DNA of 64,000 nt from Oxalobacter formigenes. GTDB taxonomy: Bacteria; Pseudomonadota; Gammaproteobacteria; Burkholderiales; Burkholderiaceae_D. The notes beneath the pieces are model-generated. The model was not told the origin of the DNA. It was given only the letters and a program-made list of their open reading frames with translations, and made no database searches. The stretch covers positions 1 through 64,000 of the forward strand of contig JAMPAN010000004.1 of NCBI GenBank assembly GCA_023667225.1, read 5' to 3'. Position 1 is the first letter of the stretch; the number at the start of each line of letters is the position of its first letter. Shown one piece after another: positions 26,477 to 42,567 of this stretch. The translations under genes and the position numbers were made by a program.

Positions 26477-28837
26477 ATGTTGCCTTCTATTGAACAACGG
26501 ATTGCCGCTTTGCTGGCGGTGAATGTCAAGCAGGTTGAAGCGGCGGCAGCGCTCCTTGACGGGGGCGCGACGGTGCCGTTTATTGCCCGTTACCGCAAGG
26601 AGGTAACGGGCGGCCTGGATGATGCGATGCTCCGCACGCTGGAAGAACGCCTGTCTTATCTGCGGGAGCTGGAAGAGCGGCGGGCGGCGATATTGAAAAG
26701 TATTGCCGGACAGGGAAAGCTGACGCCGGCGTTAAAGGCGGCGGTGCAGATGGCAGAAGACAGGGTGACGCTGGAGGATTTGTATTTGCCTTACCGGCCG
26801 AAGCGCCGGACAAAAGCGCAGATAGCGGTGGAGGCGGGGCTTTTGCCGCTGGCCGAGGCGCTTTTGTCTGATCCGATGCTGGCACCGGAAACGGAGGCGG
26901 CCAAGTATGTGCGCACGGCGTTTTCAACGGAGAATAGCGATAATCCCGGTGTGCCTGACGCGGCGGCAGCGCTGGAGGGCGCGCGCCAGATTCTGATGGA
27001 GCGCTTTGCGGAGGAGGCTTCGCTGCTTGGGGATTTGCGCGCTTATTTGTATGCGCATGGCGTGCTCCAGTCGGGTGCGGCGGAAGGCAAGGAAGAGGAG
27101 GGTATCCGCTTTTCGGATTATTTTGATTATGAGGAGCCGTTGGCGGCGATCCCTTCGCATCGGGCACTGGCGCTTTTCAGGGGACGCCGCGAGGGGTTTT
27201 TGGCGGTTCGCCTGAGGCTGGATTCGGAGGCAGAGCGACCGAAGTGGGATGCGCCGTTTAATCCCTGCGAGAGCCGCATTGCGGCCTGTTTCGGCATTGC
27301 CAACAAGGGGCGTCCGGCTGACCGCTGGCTGACGGATACGGTGCGCTGGGCGTGGAGGGTGCGGATTTTTACGCATCTGGAGGGCGGGCTGATGAATGCG
27401 CTGCGCGAGAAGGCCGAAACGGAGGCGATGGAGATTTTTGCGCAGAATCTGAAGGCGCTGCTTTTGGCTGCGCCTGCCGGGCACCGTGTGACGATGGGGC
27501 TGGACCCTGGCTTGCGCACGGGCGTGAAGGTGGCGGTGGTGGATGAGACGGGCAAGGTGCTGGATACGGCAACGGTTTATCCGCACCCGCCGAAGAGTGA
27601 CTGGCAGGGGGCGCTGGGTACGCTAAAGAAGATGGCCGCACAGTATGGCGTGAGCCTGATTGCGGTGGGAAACGGCACGGCTTCGCGGGAGACGGATAAG
27701 CTGGCGCAGGCGCTTCTTGGCTGTTTTTCCGGCAGGCAGATGGCGAAGGTGATGGTTTCGGAGGCGGGGGCTTCGGTTTATTCTGCTTCGGCATACGCTT
27801 CGGAGGAGCTGCCGGAGCTGGATGTGACGCTGCGCGGGGCGGTTTCGATTGCGCGGCGTTTGCAGGACCCGCTGGCAGAGCTGGTGAAGATTGATCCCCG
27901 CTCTATCGGGGTGGGGCAGTATCAGCATGATGTGTCGCAGCCGGGGCTGGCGAGAACGCTGGATGCGGTGGTGGAGGATTGCGTGAATGCGGTGGGGGTG
28001 GATGTGAATACGGCTTCTGTGCCGCTTCTGGCGCGGGTTTCCGGCATCGGGCAGACGGTGGCGGGCAATATTGTGGCTTATCGCGATTTGCACGGCCGTT
28101 TTGCTTCCCGCGAGGCGTTGAAGGCGGTTCCGCGCCTGGGGGAGAAGACGTTTGAGCAGGCTGCCGGTTTTTTGCGCATTCCGGGCGGGGATAATCCGCT
28201 GGATGCTTCGGCGGTGCATCCGGAATCGTATCCGGTGGTGGAAAGGATTCTGGCGGATGTGAAGAAGGGGATTGGCGCGGTAATTGGGGATACGGCGCTT
28301 TTGAGTTCGCTTTTGCCGGAAAGGTATGCCGATGATCGTTTTGGTGTGCCGACGGTGACGGATATTCTGGCGGAGCTGGAAAAGCCGGGCCGCGACCCCC
28401 GTCCGGCTTTTGTGAGCGCTGCCTTCAAGGAAGGGGTGGAGACGATAGATGACCTTGAGCCGGATATGGTGCTGGAAGGGACGGTGACGAATGTGACGGC
28501 GTTTGGCGCGTTTGTGGATATTGGCGTGCATCAGGACGGGCTGGTGCATATTTCTGCCTTGTCTGACCGTTTTGTGAAGAACCCGCACCAGGTGGTGAGC
28601 GCCGGGCAGATTGTGAAGGTGAAGGTGATGGAGGTGGATAAAAAGCGCAGCCGGATTGCGCTTTCGATGCGGCTTTCCGACAGCGCTGCTGCCAGGGCAG
28701 GGGAAAGGGGCGCACGGGGCGGATCTGCGAAGGAAGGGGAAAATATGCGCAAAACGCATAAAAATATGCGAAATACGCATAAACCGGAGGCGGCAACGGC
28801 GATGGCGGATGCGTTTGCCCGCCTGAAGCGGCAGTGA
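26477..28837 (+). CDS. tex: Tex-family RNA-binding protein
   Basis: Conserved RNA-binding, transcription-associated protein. It shows the N-terminal helical region with [15 protein letters not shown], a YqgF-type domain ([17 protein letters not shown]), helix-hairpin-helix segments ([33 protein letters not shown]) and a C-terminal S1 domain ([27 protein letters not shown]). The start [13 protein letters not shown] gives 786 residues. The linker after S1 contains [13 protein letters not shown], which is encoded by two copies of the ATGCG-N5-CGCAT dyad. The coding sequence seems to have accepted these repeats in frame. Confidence 0.95.
28745..28759. repeat. ATGCG-N5-CGCAT dyad, copy 1 (inside tex)
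   Basis: ATGCGCAAAACGCAT, an exact five-base dyad with a five-base centre, in frame in the tex linker. It contributes the residues MRKTH. One further flanking base pair (T/A) is complementary. Confidence 0.75.
28766..28780. repeat. ATGCG-N5-CGCAT dyad, copy 2 (inside tex)
   Basis: ATGCGAAATACGCAT starts exactly 21 bases after the first copy, that is two helical turns, and encodes MRNTH in the same tex linker. Confidence 0.75.
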
Positions 28838-28877
28838 CAGGAACCGGCACGGGGAGTGGCTGGGGAGAATGAAAATA

Positions 28878-28892
28878 ATGCGTAAAACGCAT
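28878..28892. repeat. ATGCG-N5-CGCAT dyad, copy 3 (tex/permease junction)
   Basis: ATGCGTAAAACGCAT with symmetric flanks (AATA before, TATT after), so the dyad arms extend to ten bases. It lies between convergent tex and the AI-2E permease gene and could act as a two-way terminator. Confidence 0.75.
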
Positions 28893-28963
28893 TATTGAAT
28901 CTGGTACGGCGGTGGCGTGCGTTTGCCCAGGATAGGCAGCGCCCTGGGAGTGGCGGCGGGCGG

Positions 28964-30031
28964 TTATGTTTGGGGTGTATCGGTTTTTTTGGCGCTGGCG
29001 TCTGAAAAGAGGTTCCACGCGGTGATGAAGAGCGCGGCGATGACGGGGCCGATGACAAAGCCGTTTAGGCCGAAGAGGCTTAGGCCGCTTAGGGTGGAAA
29101 GCAGCACGAGGTAATCGGGCATGCGGGTGTCTTTGCCGACGAGGAGGGGGCGCAGGAGGTTATCGGCCAGGCCGATGACGACGGCGCAAAAGGCAAAGAG
29201 GATGACGCCTTTGAGGATGGCTCCGGTGAAAAAGAGGTAAAGGGCGGCAGGCAGCCAGATGATGCCTGCGCCGGCGGGGAAGAGGGAAAGGAAGGCCATG
29301 ACGGCTCCCCACAGGACGGGGGCCTGGATATTGATCAGCCAGAAGATGAGCCCGCCCAGTGCGCCTTGCAGGAGGGCGACGATGAGGTTGCCTTTGACGG
29401 CGGCGCGGATGACGGCGGTGAAGCGCTCAAGAAGGGCGGTTTTCCGGTTTTCGTTTAGGGGGATGGCCCGGCGGATGGCGGCAGCCAGTTTTCGGCCGTC
29501 GCGCAAGAAGAAGAAAAGCAGGTACAGCATGACGGCAAAGGCGGCGGCGAACCCGAAGAGGTTTTGGCCGATGAAGAGGGCTTTGCCGGCGATGAAGCGG
29601 CTGGCTTCGATGAGGCTGGCGGTGAGTTTTTGCTGGATGTCGCCGATGTTGCCGAGGCCGAGTGTTTCGAGCAGGGCGGCGGCCCATTCGGGCAGGCTGG
29701 CGTGGATTTCGGCAAAGAGGCGGCTGAAGTCGATTTCCCCGGCGAGGATTTTTTTGCAGAGTATTTCGCCTTCTTCCAGGAGGGAGATCCCGATGAGGAT
29801 GAGCGGAAGGATGGCAATGAGAAGGCAGGCGGCGAGGGTGAGAAGGGCGGCCAGGGTGTTTTTGCCGTGCAGTTTTTCCCGGATGCGGTCAAAAAGCGGT
29901 GAGAAGAGGAGGGCAAGGATGAATGCCCAGAGGATGGCGCCGGAAAAGGGCAAAAGCAGCCAGAAGAAGGCCAGGGTGATGAGGGCCAATAGCGAAAGGA
30001 AGATTTTTTCCTGGAGGCGGGGGTGGTTCAT
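28964..30031 (-). CDS. AI-2E family transporter (YdiK/PerM-like membrane protein)
   Basis: Polytopic membrane protein of 355 residues in the AI-2E/PerM exporter family. It has about seven to eight hydrophobic helices, the first pair being LSLLALITLAFFWLLLPFSG and AILWAFILALLFSPLFDRI. The C-terminal family region reads GALGGLIFWLINI, GAGIIWLPAALYLFFTGA and LADNLLRPLLVGKDTRMPDYLVLLSTLGG-like sequence. The substrate is unknown: the family name comes from one member. The start MNHPRLQEK removes 146 implausible upstream codons. It is convergent with tex. Confidence 0.9.
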   Translation of the reverse strand: MNHPRLQEKIFLSLLALITLAFFWLLLPFSGAILWAFILALLFSPLFDRIREKLHGKNTLAALLTLAACLLIAILPLILIGISLLEEGEILCKKILAGEIDFSRLFAEIHASLPEWAAALLETLGLGNIGDIQQKLTASLIEASRFIAGKALFIGQNLFGFAAAFAVMLYLLFFFLRDGRKLAAAIRRAIPLNENRKTALLERFTAVIRAAVKGNLIVALLQGALGGLIFWLINIQAPVLWGAVMAFLSLFPAGAGIIWLPAALYLFFTGAILKGVILFAFCAVVIGLADNLLRPLLVGKDTRMPDYLVLLSTLSGLSLFGLNGFVIGPVIAALFITAWNLFSDASAKKTDTPQT

Positions 30032-30250
30032 GGGCGCGTCTCTGGCTGGGGTGGCAGCCTGGCATTGTAGGGGGAAAGCGGTTTTCCGGGAAGGCGGCGC
30101 GTTTGTTTTGCCGCAAGGAATGTCTGCCTGCGGAGCGGGGATTAAAAGGAGGGACGGTTTTTTTTGATGCGCGCCAAGGGGCTCTGGGTTAAACGCCGAC
30201 AACATGGACAGGTATTTTCGGCTGTTTCGTGATGCCGTAAAGGAGAAAGC

Positions 30251-30451
30251 ATGAATACGGAAAGACGATTGCACGGAGTGAAGCGACCGAAACCGAAGAG
30301 GGTGCGCGAAGAGGAGTTTGTGGACAGTTTTGATGCGGAAACGATGGAGGAATATGACGAGATGTTTTCCGCAGACGAGATGCCGTTTTACGATGTGTGC
30401 CGCCAAATGGAGCGGGAGCGCTCGCTGGGGCGCGACGAATGCTGTGACTAG
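30251..30451 (+). CDS. Small acidic protein of unknown function
   Basis: A 66-residue frame with a good ribosome site (AGGAG, eight bases before ATG). The first 23 residues are basic (RRLHGVKRPKPKRVRE). The rest is very acidic (EEEFVDSFDAETMEEYDEMF), with a Cys pair near the end. I do not recognise it. It lies alone between a leftward permease gene and leftward ddh, so it needs its own promoter. The charge split and ribosome site support a real gene. Confidence 0.55.
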   Translation: MNTERRLHGVKRPKPKRVREEEFVDSFDAETMEEYDEMFSADEMPFYDVCRQMERERSLGRDECCD

Positions 30452-30480
30452 CGCGCCGCGCCCCGGCAAGCGGGGCGGTG

Positions 30481-31404
30481 TTATACCAGCCGGGCGATGT
30501 GGTCCATGCGTTCGCCGGGCAAAAGCAGTACCGGCGGGATATCAATTAGGGTATGGCATCCCGGTTTCATGCGGGTGACGGCCCTGGCGCAGGAGACCAG
30601 CACTTGCGAGGTGAGCGCGGGGTTGTCGATGCGCATGTCGAAGGTGAGGTGCTGGTTGGAGGTGGAGCCGGATGCGCCGACTCTTTCCATGAGCACGCCG
30701 TGGGAGTTGTCTGCCACGGCAGCCATTTCGGCCGGGGTGGCGACTTGCCGCACATCCAGCGGGTCGCTGCTGAAGTAGGGGTCGGCGGCGAGAAGGGTTT
30801 TGATGCGTTCGAAGGAGGCGCCGGGTTCGGGCAGGATATAGACCAGGCGGGAATGGCGTCCGCCGCCGATGGGGATGGTGATGGAGGTGGCGTCTGCTAC
30901 GCCTTCGATAGCGCGGGCGGCAACGGAGTGGCCCATTGAGCGGCCGCGGCCGAAGTTGGTGAAGGTGACGCCGACGGGGGCCATCGCTTCAAAAAGAACG
31001 CGCAAAAGCGAATCGGTGCCGGGATCCCACCCGGCGGCGGTGATGGCGGCGCTGCCGTTTTTGACGGCGATTTCATCAAGCGAGCGGACCAGTTCGGGGA
31101 TGCGGTCGTGGATGTCGAAGCTGTCCACGGTGCAGATGCCTTTGGCGAGGTACTGGCGGGCATCTTCGGGGACGGAGCGGGAAGGGCCGCACAGGATGAC
31201 GACATCGGGTTTGCCGCGGCTCAGGATAAGTTCGTCGATGGAGGCGAAGTCGGGCAGGTTTTGCCTTTCCAGCGGCTGGGTGCCCAGCGATTGCACGCGG
31301 CGGACGATGCCCAGGCATTCAAAATCGGGCGCATGCAGCAGGCAGTCGATGACGTGCTTGCCGATGTTGCCCAGGGAATGTACAGCGGCTTTGATGGGTT
31401 TCAT
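30481..31404 (-). CDS. ddh: meso-Diaminopimelate D-dehydrogenase
   Basis: NADP-dependent enzyme that interconverts meso-2,6-diaminopimelate and tetrahydrodipicolinate, giving a one-step route to the lysine/peptidoglycan precursor. Visible are the N-terminal Rossmann region (AAVHSLGNIGKHVIDCLL), the block ITAAGWDPGTDSLLRVLFE and the substrate-binding GRGRSMGHSVAARAI. The 307 residues are close to family length. The dihydrodipicolinate-reductase family is excluded by these blocks. Upstream is a 211-base divergent promoter region shared with the symporter gene. Confidence 0.88.
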   Translation of the reverse strand: MKPIKAAVHSLGNIGKHVIDCLLHAPDFECLGIVRRVQSLGTQPLERQNLPDFASIDELILSRGKPDVVILCGPSRSVPEDARQYLAKGICTVDSFDIHDRIPELVRSLDEIAVKNGSAAITAAGWDPGTDSLLRVLFEAMAPVGVTFTNFGRGRSMGHSVAARAIEGVADATSITIPIGGGRHSRLVYILPEPGASFERIKTLLAADPYFSSDPLDVRQVATPAEMAAVADNSHGVLMERVGASGSTSNQHLTFDMRIDNPALTSQVLVSCARAVTRMKPGCHTLIDIPPVLLLPGERMDHIARLV

Positions 31405-31615
31405 GAAAAGGGTTCCTTTCTGTCTTAATTATGGCGGGCGTCGGGAGACGGACACGCGGCAGTATAGGCACAGAGTTTGCGCAATATCAAGCCTGTTTTT
31501 TCCGGGAGGGGGTTTCTTTTCCCGTTTGTGCGGTTTTGGCCTCTGCCGGAGGGTGTTTTTCCTTTATGATGTGGGCTTTAAAACAGGGGCTGCGGCCTTT
31601 TTTCGGGGATGGGAT

Positions 31616-32940
31616 ATGGCGCGGGCCGCATGGGGTTCTCGTTTGGGGTTTATTCTGGCTGCCGCCGGTTCGGCTATCGGCCTGGGCGCGATATGGAAGT
31701 TTCCTTATGTGACGGCGCGAAATGGCGGCGGCTCGTTTTTGCTGCTTTTTCTGGTGATGGTGTTTACGCTGGGTTTTGCCGTGATGATTGCGGAGATGGC
31801 GGCCGGGCAGATTGCCAGGAAGGGACCGGTGGGCGCTTACCGCCATTTCGGCGGCAGGCGCTGGGCGGCGGCGGGGTATGCCGGGATTTTTTGCGGGTTC
31901 CTGATTCTTTCTTTTTACAGTGTGGTGGGCGGCTGGACGCTGTTTTATGTGGTGAAATCGGCCGGCGGCGGCCTGGTGACGCCGGATGCGGGAGCGCTGA
32001 AAGCGGTGTTTGATTCGTTTGTTTCGCACCCGGTTGAACCGGTGGGATACCATGCCCTTTTTATGGCGCTGACGGCGGGGGTGGTGCTGGGCGGCGTGCA
32101 GAAGGGGATTGAGCGGGTGAGCAAGTGGCTGATGACGATGCTGTTTGTGCTGATTCTGGTACTGATGGCGCGCAGCCTGACGCTGCCAGGGGCCTGGGAG
32201 GGCGTGGTGTATTTTTTGAAGCCGGATTTTTCCCGGATGAGCGCGGAAATGGTGCTGGAGGCGATGGGGCTGGCGTTTTTTCGCTTTCGCTGGGGATGGG
32301 CTGCATGATGACTTATGGCTCGTATGTTTCGGATGAGACGGATATTGCTTCTTCGGCAGCGTGGATTATCGGGCTGACGACGGCGGTTTGTTTTCTGGTG
32401 GGGCTGATGATTTTGCCGACGGTTTTTGTGTTTGGGCTGGACCCGGCGGAGGGTTCGGGACTGACGTTTATTATTATGCCGGCGGTGTTTTCCCATCTTG
32501 CGGGGGGCGGTTTTTTTGCGGTGCTGTTTTTCTTTTTGCTGTTTGTGGCGGCGCTGACTTCCTCTGTTTCGCTGATGGAGGTGGTGGTGAGTTTTTTGAT
32601 GGATGAGTTTGGTTTTTCCCGCCCGGTTTCGGCAGTGGTGATGGCGGTGTTGATGTTTGTGCTGGGGATTGCGGCTTCGCTCTCTTTCGGGGTGTGGAAG
32701 GCGCCGGTTTTTTTCGGCATGAACCTGTTTGCTTTTCTGGATTATGTGACGTCGCATGTGATGATGCCGTTTGGCGGGATTATGGTTTGCCTGCTGGCAG
32801 GCTGGGCGGCCTGGGAGGCGGTGGCCGCGCGGCTTTTGGCGGCAGGCAGGTTTTCTCCCCGCTGGCTGGGGTTGTTAAAGCCGTTTTGCCGTTATGCTGC
32901 GCCGCTGCTGATTTTGATGGTGTTGCTGCAAAATTTGTGA
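31616..32940 (+). pseudogene. Neurotransmitter:sodium symporter (NSS family), frameshifted
   Basis: The first part from MARAAWGSRLGFILAAAGSAIGLGAIWKFPY is a typical NSS transporter N terminus with the sodium-site GSAIGLGAIWKFPY. The frame breaks in a six-T run at 32276-32281: after LEAMGLAFF it reads RFRWGWAA and stops at 32308. Adding one T restores AFFSLSLGMGCMMTYGSYVSDETD and the rest to 32940. The whole gene would encode about 441 residues. It could be a true pseudogene, a slippage-switched gene or a sequencing error in a homopolymer. The substrate is probably an amino acid. Confidence 0.85.
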
Positions 32941-32960
32941 GGGCGGGCAGCTGCGTGCCC

Positions 32961-33875
32961 TCAGGCTGTGTGGGTGGTGAAGCCGGGGGAGGCAGTGACG
33001 GTGCCGTCTGACCCCATGATGAAGCCGGTGACGGGATGGCGGCTGTTGATGCGCTGCATTTTTTTCAGGAAGCTTTCGGGGGTTTCGTTGAAGAGTCCGG
33101 TGGTGAGGATGTCGCCGGTTAAGGCGTTTTCGGAAAGGATGCCGGTTAAGCGGTTGGGCGAAGGGCAGCCGGTTTTGGGGTTTAGGATGTGGCCGTAGCG
33201 TTTGCCGTTGATGTCAACGAAAGCGGTTGTCTGGCTGGAGGTGGAATAGGCGGCGTTGTCAAGGTTGAGGGTAAATAGCGCGGCGCCGCCTTCCGGGGCA
33301 TCGACGCTGACGGGCCAGGGATCGCCTGCGGGGTTTATGGCAAAGATGGTGCTGCCGCCGGCGTTGATGATGGCGTTGCCGATGCCTTTTTCCCGCATGG
33401 CGGCAACGAGCCGGTCTGTGGCGTAGGCTTTGATGAAGGAGCCGGTGATGATTTCCTGCTCTGGGCCGATGCGGACGCGGTTGCCTTTGATTTCGATTTG
33501 TTGGTAGTTGACTTTGCGGCAGGCGGCGGCAATTTCTTCGGGAGAGGGCACGCGCCGTTTTTCGTTTTTGTAGAATCCCCACAGGCGGATTAAGGGCATG
33601 ATGGTGATGTCGTATGCGCCGTCAAAGAGATCAGAAAGGGCGATGACCTGTTTCAGGAGGCTGACGGTTTCGTTATCGACTTCAACGAAGCGCCCGGCGT
33701 TGCGGTTGATTTGGTCGATGGTGGAACCGGCGCGGTAGGAGTTGTATTTTTTATCCACTTCCTCCAGCACGGCGTACAGGCTGTCAAAGGCGGTATCCGG
33801 CCAGGCGGCCGGGATTTTGATGCGGATGTGCGCGTGAAAGAGGAAGCGTTCCTGGACTTTGTAGAGGAGTTCCAT
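32961..33875 (-). CDS. apbE: FAD:protein FMN transferase (ApbE family)
   Basis: Attaches FMN covalently to Thr of flavoproteins such as Na+-NQR or Rnf subunits. Visible are YNSYRAGSTIDQINRNAG near residue 45, the GSFIKAYATDRL segment (family GGIAKGYAVD), NAIINAGGSTIFA and the C-terminal metal-site region TGDILTTGLF. The 304 residues have no signal peptide, unlike many ApbE lipoproteins, so it may act in the cytoplasm or be a divergent member. The Gly-rich G(I/S)xKGYA has changes (SFIKAYA). It lies six bases after a gene for a small exported protein. Confidence 0.88.
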   Translation of the reverse strand: MELLYKVQERFLFHAHIRIKIPAAWPDTAFDSLYAVLEEVDKKYNSYRAGSTIDQINRNAGRFVEVDNETVSLLKQVIALSDLFDGAYDITIMPLIRLWGFYKNEKRRVPSPEEIAAACRKVNYQQIEIKGNRVRIGPEQEIITGSFIKAYATDRLVAAMREKGIGNAIINAGGSTIFAINPAGDPWPVSVDAPEGGAALFTLNLDNAAYSTSSQTTAFVDINGKRYGHILNPKTGCPSPNRLTGILSENALTGDILTTGLFNETPESFLKKMQRINSRHPVTGFIMGSDGTVTASPGFTTHTA

Positions 33876-33881
33876 GCCGGT

Positions 33882-34139
33882 TTATTTGGAACCGGAGGCG
33901 CGTTCGGGGCGTTTTTTCTCCAGGCCGGTTTTGTTTTTGTGTTTCTTTTTTCCGGCTTTTTTACCATCTTTTTTTGCGCTGTTTGCGGTTTTTTCCGGAT
34001 GCGGCGCTGCTGCGGCTGCTTCGGGGCTGGCGGCAGCCTGTTCGCTGGCTGAACCGGCCTGTGCGGGCAGGGTGGCCAGAAGAAGGCTGCCGGCGGCGGC
34101 AAGGCTGGTTGTTTTCAGCAGGGCGGCAAGTTTTTTCAC
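33882..34139 (-). CDS. Small exported Lys/Ala-rich protein upstream of apbE
   Basis: An 85-residue product starting at GTG with a good AAGGA site six bases upstream. Residues 1-28 form a signal peptide ending in LPAQA. The mature part is an Ala-rich segment followed by a very basic Lys-rich tail (KKDGKKAGKKKHKNKTGLEKK). I do not recognise it. It is six bases upstream of apbE in the same direction and so is likely co-transcribed. No ApbE flavinylation motif (SGAT) is seen, so it is not an obvious FMN acceptor. Confidence 0.7.
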   Translation of the reverse strand: MKKLAALLKTTSLAAAGSLLLATLPAQAGSASEQAAASPEAAAAAPHPEKTANSAKKDGKKAGKKKHKNKTGLEKKRPERASGSK

Positions 34140-34277
34140 GGGAGTTCCTTTTTGTTCAGGTGGATGAAGGGATTGTACCGGATGGGGGAATTGTGCTGGC
34201 CGGATTTTTTTGCACGGATGTTTGCGGTATGGCAAGGAGAAGGGGATGCCGGGCCGGTATGGGCGGCATATTGGTGG

Positions 34278-34283
34278 TATAAT
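34278..34283 (+). promoter_or_regulatory. -10 box of ssrA
   Basis: A perfect TATAAT lies 26 bases before the mature tmRNA 5' end. The distance leaves room for a short leader removed by RNase P, as is usual for tmRNA precursors. Confidence 0.55.
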
Positions 34284-34309
34284 AGTTGTTCTCTGGTATT
34301 GGAACTTCC

Positions 34310-34668
34310 GGGGGCGACTTGGATTCGACAGGGGTTGCAAAGCAGCACAGGGCATACCGAGCATCTGGGTATCTCGTAAATCTGTCCAGAATGAAGTAAA
34401 CGCTAACGATAAAAGTTACGCAGTAGCCGCTTAATCCCGGCTATCCCTGCACCGTCTTGTTCCTGGGGCGGGCCTTCGGGCGGCAGGGTCATTGACAGGA
34501 AACCGCTTTTGGCCGGGTTGCCGGGCCTGAAGTTAAATTTTTGGCAGCTCGTCTTTTCGCAGCGTGTTCGTCCGCGGCGGAGGGATTAAACCAAAAGGCG
34601 CAACTAAGTATGTAGATCTGTCTGTAGAGGGCTTCTGGACGCGGGTTCGAAACCCGCCGCCTCCACCA
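34310..34668 (+). ncRNA. ssrA: Transfer-messenger RNA (tmRNA)
   Basis: Rescues stalled ribosomes and tags their products for proteolysis. The 5' end GGGGGCGACTTGGATTCGAC and the 3' end with GGTTCGAAACC and CGCCTCCACCA form the tRNA-like half with a seven-pair acceptor stem. The tag frame at 34402-34434 reads ANDKSYAVAA then TAA, preceded by the AGTAAAC-type upstream element. The 359-base one-piece form fits betaproteobacteria. The tag's LAA-like end (VAA) should be recognised by ClpXP with SspB, which is also encoded in this window. Confidence 0.96.
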
Positions 34669-34895: not shown

Positions 34896-35400
34896 TTACG
34901 GCCGTTTTTTTTTGTGACTGTCCGTTTGTTTTCCTGCGGGGTTGTAAATTTCTTTTCCGTTGTTCACGTGGTCGCGCAGTACTTTTTTTCCGGCTTCGGT
35001 TTCACTGTTTCCATAAATTCTGATGCCGCGTTTTCCAAATTCGTTAATCCAGCCGGGTTTGTATCCTTCATCGAATCCGGTTATTTTTTCCCACCTCGCC
35101 GGATGGCACGCAGGAATAAATGGTTGTAACGCCTGACCACATGATGGCGTCCGAGCACATTATGCAAGGTCCTGCATTGATATAGGCCGTTAAATTTTCA
35201 GGGGCAAGGTTATCGGTTCCCTATTTTTCATGGGCTTTTCTCAGTGCGTTGATTTCCGCGTGACAAATGGAATTGTTTTCTTCGATGATGCTGTTGGAAG
35301 CGCCAGGGATAAAGTTGCCGTTTTTTGGTGAATCCGGCGCAGGATTTTTTCCGTTTTGTTGTTTTGATACATCATTGCCGCGATTTGCCGGAGCTGTGCT
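34896..35400 (-). pseudogene. Nucleoside/cytidine deaminase-like gene, disrupted
   Basis: On the minus strand one can read NSICHAEINALRKAHEK with the zinc-binding HAE, then a TAG stop at 35221-35223, then in the same frame NLAPENLTAYINAGPCIMC with the second zinc motif PCxxC, then DAIMWSGVTTIYSC. A one-base shift at a six-A run near 35084-35089 leads into ITGFDEGYKPGWINEFGKRG and on to a TAA at 34896. Motif order and spacing fit CMP/dCMP-type deaminases. The N terminus is unclear and probably also shifted. The gene is not translatable as one protein. Confidence 0.75.
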
Positions 35401-35765
35401 GTGCCCATCAGGAAAATGACCGCGCGGTGATGCAGGCGTATGGCTTTGACGTGAAAAATACGACCGAGGCAGGCTGTGCGGCGGAATTGATGCGGCTGTA
35501 TCAGGCCATGACTGCAACGGCAAGGGGTGAAGGGGAAGAGGAAGGCCCCGGTAAATTGACAAGCCGGAGGAAGGCCAAAAAATCAGGGGGAAGCTGAGAA
35601 CGGCAAGTTGTTTGGGCAGGCGGCGGTTTCCGGGAAAGCGGTTGCAAAGTATGATATTGGTATGCCAAATTTTCTGCGTTGGTGTCAGATGCGCAGGAGG
35701 GTGTTTTCGGGGTTTTTCAGCGGTATTGAAGGGATGGTTGTTTTTTGTCAGGAAGGGGAGTGGAG
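35401..35765. other. Non-coding stretch before the SmpA-like lipoprotein gene
   Basis: About 360 bases with no supported gene. It may contain the decayed 5' end of the deaminase gene at its left edge and the promoter of the downstream lipoprotein at its right. The short open frames here have no ribosome sites or family likeness. Confidence 0.4.
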
Positions 35766-36179
35766 ATGAGGAAGCTTTTTGGCGTTTTGGGATTGGCGGC
35801 TATGGTGTTTGCCGCAGGATGTGCTTCAACGGGGGTGGAGGTGACGAGTGCGGATATTGACCGGTTGAAGCCGGGGATTACGACGAAAGCGGAGGTGATC
35901 GGGCGCTTTGGGCAGCCGACGAGCACGCGGGCGCTGCCGGATGGGGGCGAGGTGTTGTTTTACACGCATACGGAGACATCAATTAAACCTTATCAGGTGC
36001 TGCCGGTGGTGTTTGTGTTAACAGGCGGCCCGGATGCGACGGTGACGGCGGCGGAGCTGGATTTTGACAGCCAGCAGCTTTATTTGCGCCACCGCCTGAT
36101 CAGGGGGCAGGAGGCCGAGGCGTTGAAGAGGAGCGAGGAGGCGGCGCAGGAGGAGAAGGCGCAGGCTGTGACGCAATAG
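35766..36179 (+). CDS. Outer-membrane-assembly-type (SmpA/OmlA-like) lipoprotein
   Basis: A 137-residue predicted lipoprotein with a signal peptide and lipobox FAAGC (lipidated Cys at about residue 19). The following segment, SADIDRLKPGITTKAEVIGRFGQPTSTR, is the pattern of the SmpA/OmlA (BamE-like) fold. The hydrophobic strand YQVLPVVFVLTGG and a charged C-terminal helix rich in Glu and Ala follow. It is probably a periplasmic-face lipoprotein; the role is unknown. The start at ATGAGGAAG has a GGAG site. A strong terminator follows at 36241. Confidence 0.8.
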   Translation: MRKLFGVLGLAAMVFAAGCASTGVEVTSADIDRLKPGITTKAEVIGRFGQPTSTRALPDGGEVLFYTHTETSIKPYQVLPVVFVLTGGPDATVTAAELDFDSQQLYLRHRLIRGQEAEALKRSEEAAQEEKAQAVTQ

Positions 36180-36240
36180 GCGGCGAGGGAGCGCATTGCC
36201 GCTGATGGGGCGGCGATGCTGCAAGGAAGGCTGGGGAAAA

Positions 36241-36276
36241 AGCCCGCCGTGCGGATTGCCGGCGGGTTTTGTTTTT
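36241..36276 (+). terminator. Terminator after the SmpA-like lipoprotein gene
   Basis: CCCGCCG and CGGCGGG form a seven-base stem around a ten-base loop, followed by TTTTGTTTTTG. Confidence 0.8.
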
Positions 36277-36451
36277 GTGGGGGGTACAAGGCGGGGTTGC
36301 GGCGGTGTTTGTTTATGCAGATATATTTAGGGATATGGTCAATATCTGTCTGACTCAAGGGGAAACTCAAAAGATTAACAATGGGGCGGAGAAGAGAATA
36401 TGTTTCCCGGAAAAACAGGAAGGAACACAAGCAAGAAAGTGACAATTCGTT

Positions 36452-37150
36452 TTACTTGAACAGGTCTTCTTCCTCAATTAATTTTCCTTGCTGTTCATAT
36501 ATTTCAACATCTATATCTCCGTGCGTATCGGTTGCCATACGCTTTTGCAACACTAAAAGCAGAGCGGGCAAGGCGGCTCTGAAATCATTGGTTTTACTTA
36601 AGGTTGATGATGATATCTGCCATGTTTTTTTGGTAACTTTGAGTTCCGGCTTTGAGAAAGCGTATGCCGTTACGGATAATAAATGGATATAAAAGGTCTT
36701 TGTTGTTTGATAATGGTTATAGCCGACTGTCCCATATATCGGGGTGGTGTAGGTGTGAGGAACTGCGCCATAGGGGCCATAGGTGTATGTTGTATGGGTG
36801 GTTGTGCCTGTTTGCCCGATTATTGGCGTGGAATGATTGATGGTGCGTTTGCGCGGTTCGCTGACGGTAAAGTTGATAAATGCAACATAGCCGGCATCAT
36901 ATATATTCTCAACAAGGTGATAGCCATTCTTTTTGAATATGCCTGTTACACTGTCGTGGACAAGTTGGTAATCGAAGTCATCTTTGTTTTTTTCATGATC
37001 AAATATAATTTTATATTTGTCACTGTTTTTTTTATTTTGTTCATATTCCTGTGAGGTTCTTCCATTTACAAGAACATTAAAATTCGGAGAACTGCAAGCA
37101 CAGCATAGAAAAGCAAGCATTATCAACAATAAGTTTATTCTCTTCCCCAT
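36452..37150 (-). CDS. AT-rich predicted lipoprotein of unknown function
   Basis: A 232-residue protein with a signal peptide and lipobox LCCACSS (residues about 14-20). The N-terminal half contains LVNGRTSQEYEQNKKNSDKY. A Tyr/Thr/Pro-rich low-complexity loop follows (TTTHTTYTYGPYG, then HTYTTPIYGTVGYNHYQTT, residues about 115-150). The arrangement recalls DUF4136-type lipoproteins, but I cannot confirm this. Base composition is much more AT-rich than the neighbours, suggesting acquisition. It is monocistronic and divergent from the metE riboswitch. Confidence 0.7.
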   Translation of the reverse strand: MGKRINLLLIMLAFLCCACSSPNFNVLVNGRTSQEYEQNKKNSDKYKIIFDHEKNKDDFDYQLVHDSVTGIFKKNGYHLVENIYDAGYVAFINFTVSEPRKRTINHSTPIIGQTGTTTHTTYTYGPYGAVPHTYTTPIYGTVGYNHYQTTKTFYIHLLSVTAYAFSKPELKVTKKTWQISSSTLSKTNDFRAALPALLLVLQKRMATDTHGDIDVEIYEQQGKLIEEEDLFK

Positions 37151-37394
37151 TTTTTTTGACCCGTTTTGTTATGGTTTTCTGCTGGACGCAAAGGAGTATG
37201 GAAATCTTTGCGGAATTATTTTTCAGATGGCGGCTTGCCCTGCAAACAAATTTATTGTTATAGATTTTAATCATACCTTGTTTTCTTTTTTTTGTGCTTG
37301 GCAGGGTGTGGTTTTGCCATGTTGTTTATATTTTCGGAGGGGTGCCGGGGAGGTAATCCGGTTTTTGCCGGTAAATGGTGTTATAGTTTTGCCC

Positions 37395-37567
37395 TTGGCG
37401 GTATGGATGCCGCCAAATGATGGCCTGGGAAACGGAAACCGGTGCAAGTCCGGTACAGGCGCGCTGCCGTAAGCGGGGGTTTTTTCCTGTATTCACTGGG
37501 GGTTCCCGGGAAGGATGCAGGAGGTTTTGAGTTGTAACCCGTAAGTCGGAAGACGTCCCGGCCTTTT
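37395..37567 (+). promoter_or_regulatory. Cobalamin riboswitch upstream of metE
   Basis: The conserved cobalamin-riboswitch string order is present: CCTGGGAAACGGAA, then CCGGTGCAAGTCCGGTACAG, GCTGCCGTAAGCGGG, CACTGGGG, GGGAAGGATGCAGGAG, and a B12-box-like AAGTCGGAAGACGTCCC. It ends about 120 bases before the metE start. Because MetE is the B12-independent methionine synthase, the switch should shut off metE when cobalamin is present, which implies the cell can also use a B12-dependent route. That second route is outside the window. Confidence 0.88.
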
Positions 37568-37687
37568 TTCGTTGATACCGCGCGGACCGGATTTCGACTT
37601 GACCCGCTTGACGGGTTTTCGATTGTTGCCAGCCAGGCGGCTGGTGTCTTGACGCGCGTGTGTTCATCACTTTTTCAAGGAGATAAC

Positions 37688-39988
37688 ATGCGTACACATA
37701 TTTTGGGTTTTCCGAGGATTGGCGGAAACCGCGAGCAAAAGAACCTGGTAGAGAGTTACTGGAAGTCGGCTCTTTCTTTGGAGGAGCTGGCTGAAGGCGG
37801 GCGGCAGCTGCGCCTGAAGCATTGGGCGATGCAGGCGGAAGCGGGTATTGATCTGGTGCCGGTGGGAGATTTTTCCTGTTATGACCATATTCTGGATATG
37901 GCGCTGATGCTGGGGGTTGTGCCGCCGCGTTTTGCGGGGGATGCGCCGGGGATTGACCGGATGTTTCGGATGGCGCGCGGCGCAGACGGGGAAAAGGCGG
38001 TTGCCCCGCTGGAGATGACGAAGTGGTTTGATACGAATTATCACTATCTGGTGCCGGAGCTGCAGGCGGATACGGTGTTTTCGCCGGATGTGTCTTCGCT
38101 GCTCTCGCAGGTGGACGAGGCGGTGGCGGCCGGTTTTACGCCGAAGGCGGTGATTCCCGGCCCGGTTTCGTTTTTGTGGCTTTCAAAAACAACGGATGGC
38201 AGCGACAAGTGGCGGCATCTGGATGCGTTGACAGGGGCTTATACGGCGATGCTGGCGGCGCTGGGGTCGCGCTGTTCTTATATTCAGCTGGATGAACCGG
38301 TGCTGGCGCTGGATTTGCCTGATAATGTCCGGGCGATGTTTCCGGGGGTATATGCCAGGTTGCGGGATGCAACGGGGGCAGCGCTGATTTTGGCGAGTTA
38401 TTTCGGGGGGTATGAGGATAATTTGCCGGTGGCTATGGCGCTTCCGGTGGATGTGCTGCATCTGGATTTGGTGCGTGCGCCGCAGGAGCTGGATGCGGCG
38501 CTTTCGCTGATTGCTTCGGGCAGAGCGGCGAAGGATCTGGCGCTTTCGCTGGGCCTGGTGAATGGCCGCAATGTGTGGCGGGTGGATGCGGATGAGGCGG
38601 CAAAGGCGGCCAAAAAGGCAGTGGCGGCACTGGGGGAGAAGCGGGTATGGATTGGTTCTTCCTGTTCGTTGCTGCATTGCCCGGTTGATCTGGATGCGGA
38701 GAGGAGTTTGCCGGAAGAGGTGAGGCCGTGGCTGGCGTTTGCGAAGCAGAAGTGTGCAGAGGTTGCCCTGGTTGCGGAGATGGCAGGGGGCAATTTGTCT
38801 GAAAAGGGCCTGCTGGCGTTAGAGGAGAACCGAAAGGCGCAGTTTTCCCGCAAAATGAGTCCGCTTTTGCATGATGCGGCGGTAGAGAAGCGCCTTTCGG
38901 CGGTGACGGAGGCGATGCTGCACCGCGAGAAGGGGTATGAGGAGCGGATTGGGGAGCAGCGGGCTTTTATCGGCCTGGGACTCTTGCCGACGACGACGAT
39001 TGGTTCTTTCCCGCAGACGGATCAGATTCGCCGCGCCCGCAGCCAGTTCAGGGCCGGGAAGCTGGATAAGGCAGCGTATGAGGCGGCGATGAAGGCGGCT
39101 ATTGAGACGGCGGTTCGTGAGCAGGAGGCGCTGGGCCTGGATGTGCTGGTGCACGGGGAGGCGGAACGCAATGATATGGTGGAATATTTTGGCGAGCAGC
39201 TGGCCGGGTTCTGTTTTACGGCGAATGGCTGGGTGCAGAGTTATGGCACGCGCTGTGTGAAGCCGCCGGTTTTGTATGGGGATGTTTCCCGGCCGCATGC
39301 GATGACGGTGGAGTGGATGCGTTATGCGCAGTCTTTGACGGATAAGCCTGTGAAGGGGATGTTGACGGGGCCGGTGACGATTGCCTGCTGGAGTTTTGTG
39401 CGGGATGATGTGCCGCAGGAGACGGTGTTTGGGCAGCTGGCGCTGGCGGTTCGTGATGAGGCGGCAGATCTGGAGGCGGCCGGTATCAAGGTGATTCAGG
39501 TGGATGAACCGGCTTTGCGGGAGGGACTGCCTTTGCGAAGGGCGCATCAGGCGGATTATCTTCGCCGGGCGGTTGCAGCTTTCCGGCTGGCGACGAGCGG
39601 TGTTGCAAGCCGTACCCAGGTGCATACGCATATGTGTTATTGCGATTATCACGAGATTATGGACGCGATTGCGGATATGGATGCGGATGTGATCAGCCTG
39701 GAGGCGAGCCGGAGCGGAATGACGCTTCTGGATGCGTTTGCAGATAAGACTTATCCGAATGAGGTGGGCCCTGGTGTGTATGATATCCATAGTCCCCGTG
39801 TGCCTTCGGCCGGCGAGATGGAGACGCTGCTGGAAAAGGCGGTGAAGACGATGCCGTTTGAGCGGGTGTGGGTGAATCCGGATTGCGGCCTGAAGACGCG
39901 GGGCTGGGAGGAAACCCGTCTCTCGCTGAGGAATATGGTGGAGGCGGCAAGGCGGGTACGGGCGCGGCATCAGGCGCCTTCTGCCTGA
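37688..39988 (+). CDS. metE: Cobalamin-independent methionine synthase MetE
   Basis: Transfers a methyl group from methyl-tetrahydropteroyl-triglutamate to homocysteine. It has the N-terminal HILGFPRIGGNREQKNLVESYWK, the zinc-site region VLVHGEAERNDMVEYFGEQL (His and Cys ligands, residues about 490-510), PVKGMLTGPVTI and the C-terminal HTHMCYCDYHEIM and WVNPDCGLKTRGWEE. With 766 residues it is full length. The ATG follows a strong AAGGAG site. A cobalamin riboswitch lies upstream. Confidence 0.97.
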   Translation: MRTHILGFPRIGGNREQKNLVESYWKSALSLEELAEGGRQLRLKHWAMQAEAGIDLVPVGDFSCYDHILDMALMLGVVPPRFAGDAPGIDRMFRMARGADGEKAVAPLEMTKWFDTNYHYLVPELQADTVFSPDVSSLLSQVDEAVAAGFTPKAVIPGPVSFLWLSKTTDGSDKWRHLDALTGAYTAMLAALGSRCSYIQLDEPVLALDLPDNVRAMFPGVYARLRDATGAALILASYFGGYEDNLPVAMALPVDVLHLDLVRAPQELDAALSLIASGRAAKDLALSLGLVNGRNVWRVDADEAAKAAKKAVAALGEKRVWIGSSCSLLHCPVDLDAERSLPEEVRPWLAFAKQKCAEVALVAEMAGGNLSEKGLLALEENRKAQFSRKMSPLLHDAAVEKRLSAVTEAMLHREKGYEERIGEQRAFIGLGLLPTTTIGSFPQTDQIRRARSQFRAGKLDKAAYEAAMKAAIETAVREQEALGLDVLVHGEAERNDMVEYFGEQLAGFCFTANGWVQSYGTRCVKPPVLYGDVSRPHAMTVEWMRYAQSLTDKPVKGMLTGPVTIACWSFVRDDVPQETVFGQLALAVRDEAADLEAAGIKVIQVDEPALREGLPLRRAHQADYLRRAVAAFRLATSGVASRTQVHTHMCYCDYHEIMDAIADMDADVISLEASRSGMTLLDAFADKTYPNEVGPGVYDIHSPRVPSAGEMETLLEKAVKTMPFERVWVNPDCGLKTRGWEETRLSLRNMVEAARRVRARHQAPSA

Positions 39989-40041
39989 TTTTTTGCCGCA
40001 GGGCCATGCAGCGGCATGGCTGTTTTGATGGCGCTGTGTTC

Positions 40042-40076
40042 CTGCCGGGGCTGCCCGGCAGGGATGCGGCGCTTTT
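40042..40076 (+). terminator. Terminator after metE
   Basis: CTGCCGGG and CCCGGCAG form a perfect eight-base stem with a four-base loop; a T-run (CTTTTTTG) follows after about nine bases. A weaker hairpin (GCCATGC/GCATGGC at 40003-40020) and the dyad at 40096 followed by CTTTTTGTTTTT stand in series, so metE transcripts meet three stops. Confidence 0.6.
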
Positions 40077-40095
40077 TTGTTGCGGGTGTGTGATT

Positions 40096-40110
40096 ATGCG
40101 TGTTACGCAT
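40096..40110. repeat. ATGCG-N5-CGCAT dyad, copy 4 (after metE)
   Basis: ATGCGTGTTACGCAT with flanks GATT and AATC, so the dyad arms reach ten bases around three bases. A T-rich run follows, so as RNA it would look like a terminator for metE. Confidence 0.75.
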
Positions 40111-40123
40111 AATCTTTTTGTTT

Positions 40124-40543
40124 TTATGCGTATGCAGCATGATTCATCAGGGTGCCGCAGGGGCAGATTTTGCCGGACAAAGCAGCGTTTTCTGCGTCCA
40201 GTTCTTCTTGCCGTTTGAGTTCCCTGGCGGTTTCGTTTTCGATATAGCAGGTTTGCGCTTTTTCGAAGATGTGATGGAGAAGGTGTCCGGTGTCGCTGTA
40301 TTCATGGCGTATGGCGCCCAGAAGGAGGGTTTCAATGCTGCCGCCGGGGATATGGTCGCAGATGGTTTCGATGGTTTTCAGGGCGGCTGGCCGGTTTTCG
40401 CCCAGGAGGATGCGCCGGGTGGTGCTGCGGATTGCTGCGGCGATGGCTTCACGGCGTTCCTGGCGGGCTTCCTGTCTGGCTTCTTCGGCCAGGAAGCGGT
40501 TCAGTTCGGCTATGACGGGGCAGTTTTGCATGATGTTCTCCAT
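40124..40543 (-). CDS. Uncharacterised protein, probably under phage-type repressor control
   Basis: A 139-residue protein that I do not recognise. The N-terminal third is a charged helix (LAEEARQEARQERREAIAAAI, residues about 18-38), likely coiled coil. The middle (SIETLLLGAIRHEYSDTGHLLHHIF) is helical with several His. The end holds a CPCG pair and is supplied by the dyad repeat. Upstream are a nine-base perfect palindrome and a 14-base element shared with the S24 repressor promoter, so it is probably part of that regulon. Confidence 0.6.
   Translation of the reverse strand: MENIMQNCPVIAELNRFLAEEARQEARQERREAIAAAIRSTTRRILLGENRPAALKTIETICDHIPGGSIETLLLGAIRHEYSDTGHLLHHIFEKAQTCYIENETARELKRQEELDAENAALSGKICPCGTLMNHAAYA
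40126..40140. repeat. Degenerate dyad copy 5 (end of the 139-residue gene)
   Basis: ATGCGTATGCAGCAT differs from the dyad by one base in the right arm. It overlaps the last codons and lies two bases from the stop of the leftward gene, so the repeat supplies the C terminus (NHAAYA) of that protein. Confidence 0.55.
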
Positions 40544-40559
40544 TGGTTGATGATGGAGA

Positions 40560-40573
40560 AATTCTACATTTGC
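40560..40573. promoter_or_regulatory. Shared 14-base promoter element, copy A
   Basis: GCAAATGTAGAATT read on the minus strand, 17 bases upstream of the 139-residue gene. The same 14 bases occur on the plus strand at 41537-41550, between the phage repressor and the replication gene. The flanks also match partly (TTC before and a T or A after). Confidence 0.6.
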
Positions 40574-40578
40574 GGAAT

Positions 40579-40598
40579 TACAAAAGTCAACTTTTGTA
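40579..40598. promoter_or_regulatory. Operator-like palindrome upstream of the 139-residue gene
   Basis: TACAAAAGT and ACTTTTGTA form a perfect nine-base dyad with a two-base centre, directly upstream of the shared 14-base element. Related half-sites (TACAGGTGT, TACAAGTGT) appear at the repressor promoter near 41489-41523, which supports binding by the S24 repressor. Confidence 0.6.
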
Positions 40599-40630
40599 GA
40601 TTATTTGCGCTGCAATGGTGTAAATTTTTT

Positions 40631-40645
40631 ATGCGTGATACGCAT
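40631..40645. repeat. ATGCG-N5-CGCAT dyad, copy 6
   Basis: ATGCGTGATACGCAT flanked by T-runs on both sides, in the region between the 139-residue gene and the repressor gene. As plus-strand RNA it would be a short stem followed by six U. Confidence 0.75.
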
Positions 40646-40825
40646 TTTTTGGCGGGCGGCGCTATGCCTGTGTGCGGGTTCGGCGTGAAAGGCAGGAGGC
40701 CGGTTTTTCTTTAAGGGGAGGCGCGCCGCTGTCATGGCGCTGCCGGCGGGCGCCGTATCGGTATCCGGTGGGTGTGCCGGGGGTGAGGCGGTGCTGCCGG
40801 TGTGTTTTTCAGGGCGGGCAGGGGT

Positions 40826-41476
40826 TTATTCTTCTGTCCACTTGCCGATGACGACGCCGCAGATGGTGGCGTTTCCGTTGATTTCGATGAATTTCTCTGG
40901 CCATGAAGGGTTGAGGGCCATGAGGTATTTTTTTTCGCCTTCGATGACAAGTTGCTTGAAGGTGGCTTCTTTGCTGTCTTCAAGGCGGACGACGACGCGG
41001 GCGCCGTTGATGGCTTCTTTTTCGGGATCGACAAAGATGATGTCGCCGTCGGAGTAGGTGTGTTTGCCCATAGGGTTGTACATGCTCATGCCTTTAACGC
41101 GCAGGGCAAAGGTGCGGCCGGTATGTTTTTTGATGCAGGGGAGCCATTCATCGGCGACGCCGGGTTCGTAGATGTCGATGACTTCGGCCCATTTGCCGGC
41201 GGTGACCCATGAGATGACGGGAACTTGTCCCTGGATGTCTGGCGCGGGTTCGATGTTGTGCTGGTTTTGTTCGAGCCAGTTTGACGGTTCGTCCAGGAGT
41301 TGTTCAAGGGTAAGGCCGAAGGCGGCGGCGAGTGCCGGGGCAAAGCTGGAACGGGTGCTGTCGCGCATTTCCAGGGCGCTGATGGTGCCTTTGGGGACGC
41401 CTGATTTTTCTTCAAGCTGTTCCAGTGTCCAGCCGAGGTGAAGGCGGTATTTTCTGATTTGTTTTCCGAGTGCCAT
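40826..41476 (-). CDS. Phage-type repressor with S24 (LexA-like) peptidase domain
   Basis: A CI/LexA-type repressor of 216 residues. The N-terminal helix-turn-helix spans residues about 1-62 (IRKYRLHLGWTLEQLEEKSG, then ALAAAFGLTLEQLL). The C-terminal S24 domain holds the nucleophile Ser in LRVKGMSMYNP and the Lys in GARVVVRLEDSKEATFKQL. An AG-type cleavage site (SWVTAGKWAE) lies near residue 92. It should be cleaved in a RecA-dependent way during DNA damage. It is divergent from the replication gene, the usual immunity-region layout. Confidence 0.92.
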   Translation of the reverse strand: MALGKQIRKYRLHLGWTLEQLEEKSGVPKGTISALEMRDSTRSSFAPALAAAFGLTLEQLLDEPSNWLEQNQHNIEPAPDIQGQVPVISWVTAGKWAEVIDIYEPGVADEWLPCIKKHTGRTFALRVKGMSMYNPMGKHTYSDGDIIFVDPEKEAINGARVVVRLEDSKEATFKQLVIEGEKKYLMALNPSWPEKFIEINGNATICGVVIGKWTEE

Positions 41477-41488
41477 TTCCTGACTTTA

Positions 41489-41523
41489 TACAGGTGTGGA
41501 AAAAATGACAAATACAAGTGTTG
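41489..41523. promoter_or_regulatory. Operator-like half-sites at the repressor promoter
   Basis: Two direct motifs, TACAGGTGTGGA and TACAAGTGTTGA, lie 13-50 bases upstream of the repressor start. They resemble the palindrome arm TACAAAAGT at 40579. I take them as repressor sites on this basis only. Confidence 0.4.
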
Positions 41524-41536
41524 AAATATGATTTCT

Positions 41537-41550
41537 GCAAATGTAGAATT
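41537..41550. promoter_or_regulatory. Shared 14-base promoter element, copy B
   Basis: GCAAATGTAGAATT on the plus strand, about 60 bases upstream of the repressor start and 205 before the replication gene. It is identical to the element upstream of the 139-residue gene. It could be an operator or part of a common promoter. Confidence 0.6.
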
Positions 41551-41666
41551 ACGGCATGGATGTACTGGTTTTTTGTGCAGTGATGGAGCGCTTTAAAAGG
41601 ATAAGCGGGGATGCCGGAAGGCCGGTTGGCCGGGGGAAAGCGGGGCGCTGGCCGGGCAGGCAAAAT

Positions 41667-41681
41667 ATGCGTTTTACGCAT
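41667..41681. repeat. ATGCG-N5-CGCAT dyad, copy 7
   Basis: ATGCGTTTTACGCAT with flanks AAAAT and ATTTT, giving eleven-base perfect arms around TTT. This is the longest dyad of the set. It lies 74 bases upstream of the phage replication gene start. Confidence 0.8.
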
Positions 41682-41754
41682 ATTTTGAGCAAGGGGTTCA
41701 GCCGGGCGGGGTGGTTGACGGCAGGGATGGCGGGGCAAGGAAAGGAATCTGGCG

Positions 41755-42567
41755 ATGAGTATTCAGGCGATGACATGGGCTTATGGGCAGCGGATGAAGT
41801 CTTCGGTGAAGTTTGTGTTGGTGACGCTGTGCAATTATGCCGATGCGGAATGCCGTTTGTGGCCTTCTGTTGCTGATTTGGTGGAAAAGACCTGTCTGGA
41901 CAGGAAGACGGTGATAGCGGCTGTCGGCGCGCTGGAGGCGGGCGGGTTTTTGGTGGATACGGGGGAAAGGAAGGGCAAGACGCGGCAGATCAAGGTTTAC
42001 CGGATTGTGCCGGACGGCGGGGAGGGCGAAGGGGGAAAAGCGGCCCTGAAGCGGGATGCTCCCGGAGGTGGAACGGTTCCGTTTTCTTCTCCAAAGGATG
42101 CCGCTTTTGCCGTGGAAGGGTTCCCGGTTTCCGGTGAAAGGAGGCCAAAAACGGGACAGGGAATCTTTAATGAATCATTAAATGAATTGTCAGGGAATTG
42201 TCAATATGCGTATGACGCATATTTTGGGGCCGGGAAGGCGGGGAAGGCGGAAAGGTTTGTGCCGCTGGGGTATTTGGCGTTGCAGGGGGTTGATGCCGGT
42301 GTTGCCCTGGATTGGCTGGCGATGAGGAAGGCCAGGAAGGCGCAGCCAACGAAAACGGCGATAGATGGCATAGCGGGTGAGGCGGCAAAGGCGGGCATGA
42401 GTCTTGAGGAGGCTCTGAAGATTTGCTGTGCCAATGGCTGGCAGGGTTTCAGGGCGGACTGGATTCGGAAGCGGGAAAGGGCCCCGGCGGGCAGGAGCCT
42501 TTATGAACAAAACATGGAAGCGGTTGCGCGGGCAAAGAAGCTGATTTTGGGAGGGCAGGATGCGTGA
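41755..42567 (+). CDS. Phage-type replication initiator with winged-helix domain (O-like)
   Basis: A 270-residue protein. The N-terminal winged helix (residues about 1-85) reads SSVKFVLVTLCNYADAECRLWPS, then KTCLDRKTVIAAVGALEAGGFLVDTGE, as in phage O-like or DnaT-like initiators. A linker of about 80 residues includes YAYDAY, encoded by dyad copy 8. The C-terminal region has the W-x-GF-x-A-x-W pattern (NGWQGFRADWI) common in phage replication proteins. Its stop overlaps the next start by eight bases, so the pair is coupled like lambda O and P. Confidence 0.8.
   Translation: MSIQAMTWAYGQRMKSSVKFVLVTLCNYADAECRLWPSVADLVEKTCLDRKTVIAAVGALEAGGFLVDTGERKGKTRQIKVYRIVPDGGEGEGGKAALKRDAPGGGTVPFSSPKDAAFAVEGFPVSGERRPKTGQGIFNESLNELSGNCQYAYDAYFGAGKAGKAERFVPLGYLALQGVDAGVALDWLAMRKARKAQPTKTAIDGIAGEAAKAGMSLEEALKICCANGWQGFRADWIRKRERAPAGRSLYEQNMEAVARAKKLILGGQDA
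42206..42220. repeat. ATGCG-N5-CGCAT dyad, copy 8 (inside the replication gene)
   Basis: ATGCGTATGACGCAT with complementary flanks AAT and ATT, so the arms reach nine bases. It lies in the linker of the replication protein and is translated as YAYDAY, in a different frame from the tex copies. Confidence 0.75.

Follow-up and report, generated by a model that had tools for sequence, protein, structure and literature searches.

The DNA analysed here (the window) is a stretch of 64,000 nucleotides from Oxalobacter formigenes, which forms part of contig C32 of the host genome (G000, 1.97 Mb). It carries the core gene tex, convergent with a gene for an AI-2E-type permease, and metE, preceded at 37387-37576 by a cobalamin riboswitch, as is expected for a B12-independent methionine synthase. 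Between metE and a DnaK-like gene stand, on their own, four phage-type genes (40127-43351), encoding a 139-residue ORF, a CI-like repressor, an O-like replication initiation protein (rep) and a DUF6475 protein. They make up a small prophage remnant, and no structural phage genes were seen in the stretch examined. The 139-residue ORF gave no match in Pfam or PHROGs. A covariance-model search of the window against Rfam returned, besides the riboswitch, only a tmRNA gene (34310-34668) and a tRNA (45562-45634, minus strand). The features discussed below are collected in Table 1.

Table 1. Genes, dyads and candidate operators in the window, and dyad loci of the host genome. Positions refer to the window unless a contig is named.
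Feature	Position	Strand	Context or match
tex	26417..28837	+	Pfam Tex domains and S1; C-terminal linker with two dyads
Dyad ATGCG-CAAAA-CGCAT	28745..28759		In frame in the C-terminal linker of tex (MRKTH)
Dyad ATGCG-AAATA-CGCAT	28766..28780		In frame in tex (MRNTH)
Dyad ATGCGT-AAA-ACGCAT	28878..28892		Between the convergent tex and AI-2E-type permease genes
Dyad ATGCGT-GTT-ACGCAT	40096..40110		Between metE and the 139-residue ORF (convergent)
Degenerate dyad ATGCG-TATGC-AGCAT	40126..40140		Overlaps the end of the 139-residue ORF
139-residue ORF	40127..40543	-	Dyads at both ends
Candidate operator ATTCTACATTTGCGGAA of the prophage's own repressor	40553..40577		At the promoter predicted for the 139-residue ORF
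Dyad ATGCGT-GAT-ACGCAT	40631..40645		Between the CI-like gene and the 139-residue ORF
CI-like XRE-S24 repressor	40829..41476	-	Pfam HTH_3 and Peptidase_S24; phrog_4 transcriptional repressor
Second candidate CI operator TTCTGCAAATGTAGAAT	41533..41557		At the predicted rep promoter
Dyad ATGCGT-TTT-ACGCAT	41667..41681		Downstream of the promoter predicted for the rep operon, ahead of the rep start codon
O-like phage replication initiation protein (rep)	41755..42567	+	phrog_678
Dyad ATGCGT-ATG-ACGCAT	42206..42220		Inside the replication gene
C22-type XRE-S24 regulator	G000:C22:106480-107118		Outside the window; Pfam HTH_3 and Peptidase_S24
Dyad locus 1, tex tail	28745, 28766, 28878
Dyad locus 2, prophage remnant	40.1-42.2 kb		Dyads at 40096, 40126, 40631, 41667, 42206
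Dyad locus 3	G000:C4		Dyads near 10.2 and 13.0 kb
Dyad locus 4	G000:C22		Dyads near 106.4-107.2 kb

The tex tail and the prophage remnant share a short dyad of the form ATGCG-N5-CGCAT. All seven exact copies reported by the original prediction are present, as are the one-mismatch copy at 40126 and the five copies of the stricter form ATGCGT-N3-ACGCAT. The prediction had also correctly read the residues MRKTH and MRNTH of tex and YAYDAY of the replication protein as encoded by dyad copies, and the end of the 139-residue protein as supplied by one, namely that at 40126. The two copies within tex form a tandem repeat of 21 bp, i.e. seven residues. The copy at 40631 lies upstream of the promoter predicted for the 139-residue ORF, some 40 bp from its -35 element, and that at 41667 extends with its flanks to a perfect dyad of 27 bp, in a roadblock-like position.

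Dinucleotide-preserving shuffles of the window rule out chance as the origin of these copies for both forms: the loose form was found 7 times against 0.27 expected, the strict form 5 times against 0.01, and none of 100 shuffles reached either count. The excess claimed earlier is thus real, while the chance estimate given with it (0.06) was somewhat low. The window holds 96 dyads with arms of five bases around a five-base centre, and ATGCG is the commonest arm (seven), followed by one that occurs four times.

Genome-wide, as judged from pattern searches and selected stretches, the excess is local. The loose motif occurs 18 times in G000; 11 copies lie outside the window, in about 1.9 Mb, for which the shuffled rate of the window predicts about 8. 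With such a near-chance count, the loose motif as such is no genome-wide family. Five of the eight strict copies in the genome lie within the window, and the true signal is found at four loci (Table 1). This set leaves out copies within conserved coding sequence. The copy at C11:97098 was rejected as a coding coincidence of EQCVER type, conserved in homologues of G007, G010, G018 and G035 and shared across the order; that at C29:164, within an ORF, is probably of the same kind. G000 has four Peptidase_S24 genes, on C32, C4 and C22 and at C11:641432, the last presumably lexA. Genes for non-LexA XRE-S24 (CI-like) regulators stand at three of the four dyad loci, and there are only three such genes in the genome; the chance of so many loci lying that near them is about 3e-7 (order 1e-7 to 1e-6, for a test made post hoc). 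The dyad is a real, locally concentrated signal. A literature search on the dyad in Oxalobacter found no description of such an element, and in those papers with the words ATGCGT and ACGCAT that were read, they occurred only in unrelated sequences, e.g. primers.

Comparison with orthologues bears on the coding copies. In a sister species (G007), the tex region is 96% identical and both linker dyads are kept, as ATGCGTAAAACGCAT at the position of the 28745 copy and as ATGCGGGATGCGCAT at that of the 28766 copy, where the residues are changed (MRDAH) and the arms are not. Conservation of the residues without the dyad bases, which would have spoken against the dyad, is hence not what is seen. Downstream of tex, G007 carries two dyads that form a long inverted repeat, as against one dyad (28878) in the window. 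This repeat (L089, 8115-8151) is near-perfect, AACAATGCGTCTTGCGCA ... TGCGCAAGACGCATTGTT, and its flank bases differ on both sides together. On the other hand, the tex tails of G006, G001, G012 and more distant relatives have unrelated linkers without dyads, and the rep homologue of G007 (46% identity, the only full-length one in the genus) has none either. As the coding copies are absent from these other tex tails and from the G007 rep gene, they are recent gains at variable linkers and not residues kept for protein reasons.

The locus on contig C22 offers a candidate for the protein that reads the dyad. Its XRE-S24 regulator gene is flanked in G000 by four dyads, U1 and U2 upstream and D1 and D2 downstream. 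All four are kept in G007 and, with a protein about 65% identical, in G001, and the same pairs occur at the corresponding locus of G012 (L027). Each of the four Oxalobacter genomes with this gene thus has dyads on either side of it. The 3' flank is largely unalignable between G000/G007 and G001 except for the dyads, which are kept with changed middles (ATGCG-TTTTT-CGCAT versus ATGCG-CATTG-CGCAT). The stretch upstream is conserved between G000 and G001, and an open reading frame runs through it. We considered that the upstream dyads might belong to an N-terminal extension of the protein and rejected this: all G000/G001 differences read in the alignment are nonsynonymous, for which reason the stretch looks constrained as DNA and not as protein. 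U2 overlaps a possible -35 element and spacer (TTGCGC ... CAGAAT, recognised by eye only); with the promoter so placed, sites at the regulator's own promoter are kept in G000, G007, G001 and G012.

The distribution of the regulator follows that of the dyads. Among 394 genomes of the family, 4 have the C22-type helix-turn-helix (HTH) domain; elsewhere in the family, proteins with a related S24 domain carry another HTH, and exact dyads are absent. A refined dyad pattern, WDTGCGYNWNRCGCAHW, gives 9, 6, 6 and 3 sites in the four carriers against 0-2 in nine other Oxalobacter genomes (exact one-sided rank test, p=0.0014), and the six refined sites of the non-carriers all lie within long ORFs. A DNA-binding protein with the same distribution as the dyads, as the original prediction had proposed to look for, can therefore be named in the C22-type regulator, which occurs in the same four genomes. 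However, the genomes are few and the four carriers may belong to a single clade, so that ancestry confounds the shared distribution; we take it as supportive, not decisive. G006, which is near the carriers by tex identity, has neither the gene nor the dyads, in a genome that is only 62% complete.

The C22-type protein combines its HTH with an S24 domain and matches lambda CI in the C-terminal domain. In the alignment the catalytic Ser is kept, an Arg stands at the position of the catalytic Lys192 of CI, and by sequence reading Thr-Glu is found where the Ala-Gly cleavage site would align. Self-cleavage of this protein is hence doubtful.

On these grounds we hypothesize that the dyads are operators of a dimeric HTH repressor whose likeliest reader is the C22-type regulator, a reading to which we would give about an even chance of being correct. 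Several observations speak against it. Some copies lie within genes or at 3' ends, which is unusual for simple operators, the downstream pair D1/D2 is not accounted for by autorepression alone, and the rep homologue of G007 lacks the dyad although G007 has the C22-type gene.

Alternatively, and in our view somewhat unlikely, the dyads could be operators of another dimeric protein, such as the CI-like repressor of the window, a different protein of the XRE type, or a factor of the nucleoid or of segregation, although none of our observations favours the last of these. The CI gene of the window does have dyads on both sides (40631, 41667), and XRE genes are numerous in G000, where a survey of the HTH_3 family gave 14 matches above the cut-off. 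However, the recognition helix of the window's CI differs from the C22-type HTH, and a separate dyad, ATTCTACATTTGCRGAA, which looks like its own operator, is found in the CI region at two predicted promoters, where the sites at 40553-40577 and 41533-41557 are inverted-repeat partners. Given its different HTH, this repressor is probably not the reader of the dyads. Moreover, G007 does not have this prophage and keeps the tex dyads, its nearest CI homologue being only 44% identical. The different helix, the separate operator and the G007 tex dyads together lead us to favour the C22-type protein. The prophage CI homologues of G003 (1.68 Mb) and G011 share 43-45% identity with the window's CI; no dyad lies within about 5 kb of them, and both genomes lack the C22 type. 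A further perfect dyad at 40579-40598, TACAAAAGT-ca-ACTTTTGTA, lies at the promoter predicted for the 139-residue ORF and is possibly a Cro- or CI-type site.

Whether the dyad acts as DNA or as a folded strand was approached through its two halves. We aligned 26 sites, split them into half-sites and tested complementarity by shuffling the right halves among sites. Each half follows the consensus AAAwT-ATGCGY-A. At position 6, T or C predominates on each side independently, with several non-pairing C..A combinations; positions 6 and 10 are complementary in 10 of 18 cases (9.0 expected), and at each flank position from 1 to 8 complementarity does not exceed that of shuffled partners. This rules out hairpin covariation as a general rule, and the selected hairpin of the original prediction is not supported. 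The complementary flanks noted there are present at 28878, 40096, 41667 and partly 42206 and absent at 28745, 28766, 40126 and 40631, and they follow from the preference of each half for A-rich DNA outside ATGCG; a dyad with AT-rich flanks can mimic a covarying hairpin. With complementarity between the two flanks no higher than among shuffled partners, the sequences support well a dimeric protein site and not a selected hairpin. Such a site had been proposed as the other possibility, and it agrees with independently varying half-sites, an AT-rich centre and flanks, and a distribution in common with one CI-like DNA-binding protein.

We consider it quite improbable, for the same reason, that the dyads are hairpins of RNA or single-stranded DNA, i.e. 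intrinsic or bidirectional terminators or mRNA stabilisers. One real co-change of arms, downstream of tex (AATA/TATT in G000, AACA/TGTT in G007), would suit hairpins, as would the position of the 28878 and 40096 copies between convergent genes and the segment 40092-40114, which runs into T-rich DNA and receives a terminator score. A GC-rich stem with a T run is present at 40096 and 40631 on the plus strand and at 28766 and 28878 on the minus strand; the other copies do not fit. Yet the arm sequence itself is fixed, not pairing alone, the cores fold weakly in half of the window copies (-5 to -6 kcal/mol), and Rfam gave no match at any dyad in the window. Stronger terminator-like hairpins of metE lie at 39969 and 40030, separate strong hairpins stand beside the dyads at the C22-type locus of G001, and several dyads are upstream of genes or inside them, as in tex and rep; the suggested general role as a minimal terminator is not supported.

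Highly improbable, finally, is the mobile or REP-like palindrome of the original prediction, inserted by a Y1 transposase or similar: the occurrence of copies as pairs, as a tandem of 21 bp in tex and within coding linkers, some between convergent genes as in RAYT-mobilised REP/REPIN elements, the gain in the G000/G007 lineage and one Y1_Tnp gene in G000 would fit it, but only about 12-15 copies are credible where REP/REPINs have high copy number and a flanking RAYT, they share no unit beyond half-sites that follow no hairpin logic, no REP-kind 5' tag or RAYT accompanies them, no dyad lies beside the sole Y1 gene, and orthologous C22-locus positions are kept across the about 65% protein identity mentioned above.

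If the dyads are operators of the C22-type regulator, a dimer of this protein would bind the two half-sites, whose centres are spaced by about 10 bp, one turn of the helix, on either side of an AT-rich middle. It would repress its own promoter via the two upstream dyads, and would also act on tex and on the immunity and replication regions of prophage remnants. Repression and roadblocking are suggested by position: a dimer bound downstream of predicted promoters or within genes could hinder elongation, candidates being the copies at 41667 (gap between predicted promoter and rep), 42206 (in rep), 40096/40126 (end of the 139-residue gene) and 28745-28892 (end of tex). Clusters of dyads could also act by looping, a known action of CI proteins.

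Such an arrangement resembles the CI-type operators of lambda and 434 in its short dyad, whose half-sites are spaced by about one turn of the helix and enclose an AT-rich centre, in the several sites per control region, including the regulator's own promoter, and in a candidate reader with HTH_3 and Peptidase_S24 domains whose C-terminal part matches lambda CI. It differs in that the Oxalobacter dyads are scattered over several chromosomal loci, within genes and at 3' ends, and in the Arg and Thr-Glu that the candidate reader has for Lys192 and Ala-Gly of lambda CI. The stoperators of mycobacteriophage L5 are likewise repressor sites found in large number outside promoters, at intergenic and transcribed positions; they are asymmetric 13-mers, bound by monomers, in fixed orientation with transcription, and hindrance of elongation was proposed for them (PMC9283540). 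The Oxalobacter dyads share the intergenic and transcribed positions outside promoters but are symmetric, and any block of elongation by them is putative.

Most likely, then, the dyads are the operators of a CI-like regulator; as a set they are ordinary in kind and new in their sequence and odd placement. We consider unlikely, yet worth stating, a wider model in which a resident regulator of CI-like type, which probably does not undergo cleavage and may be a domesticated phage protein, silences prophage remnants and reaches the core gene tex via dispersed symmetric sites, partly by elongation block, with operators gained in coding linkers. If the operator reading is right, it would provide, for the oxalate-degrading gut bacterium Oxalobacter, an operator sequence not characterised before together with the protein that likely reads it, and a small and easily testable example in which a chromosomal CI-like regulator acts on several loci of phage origin and on a core gene. 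As a minor observation, an ORF of G001 that starts with many KQAS repeats (L138, 7401-9602) adjoins a dyad-like site at 9728.
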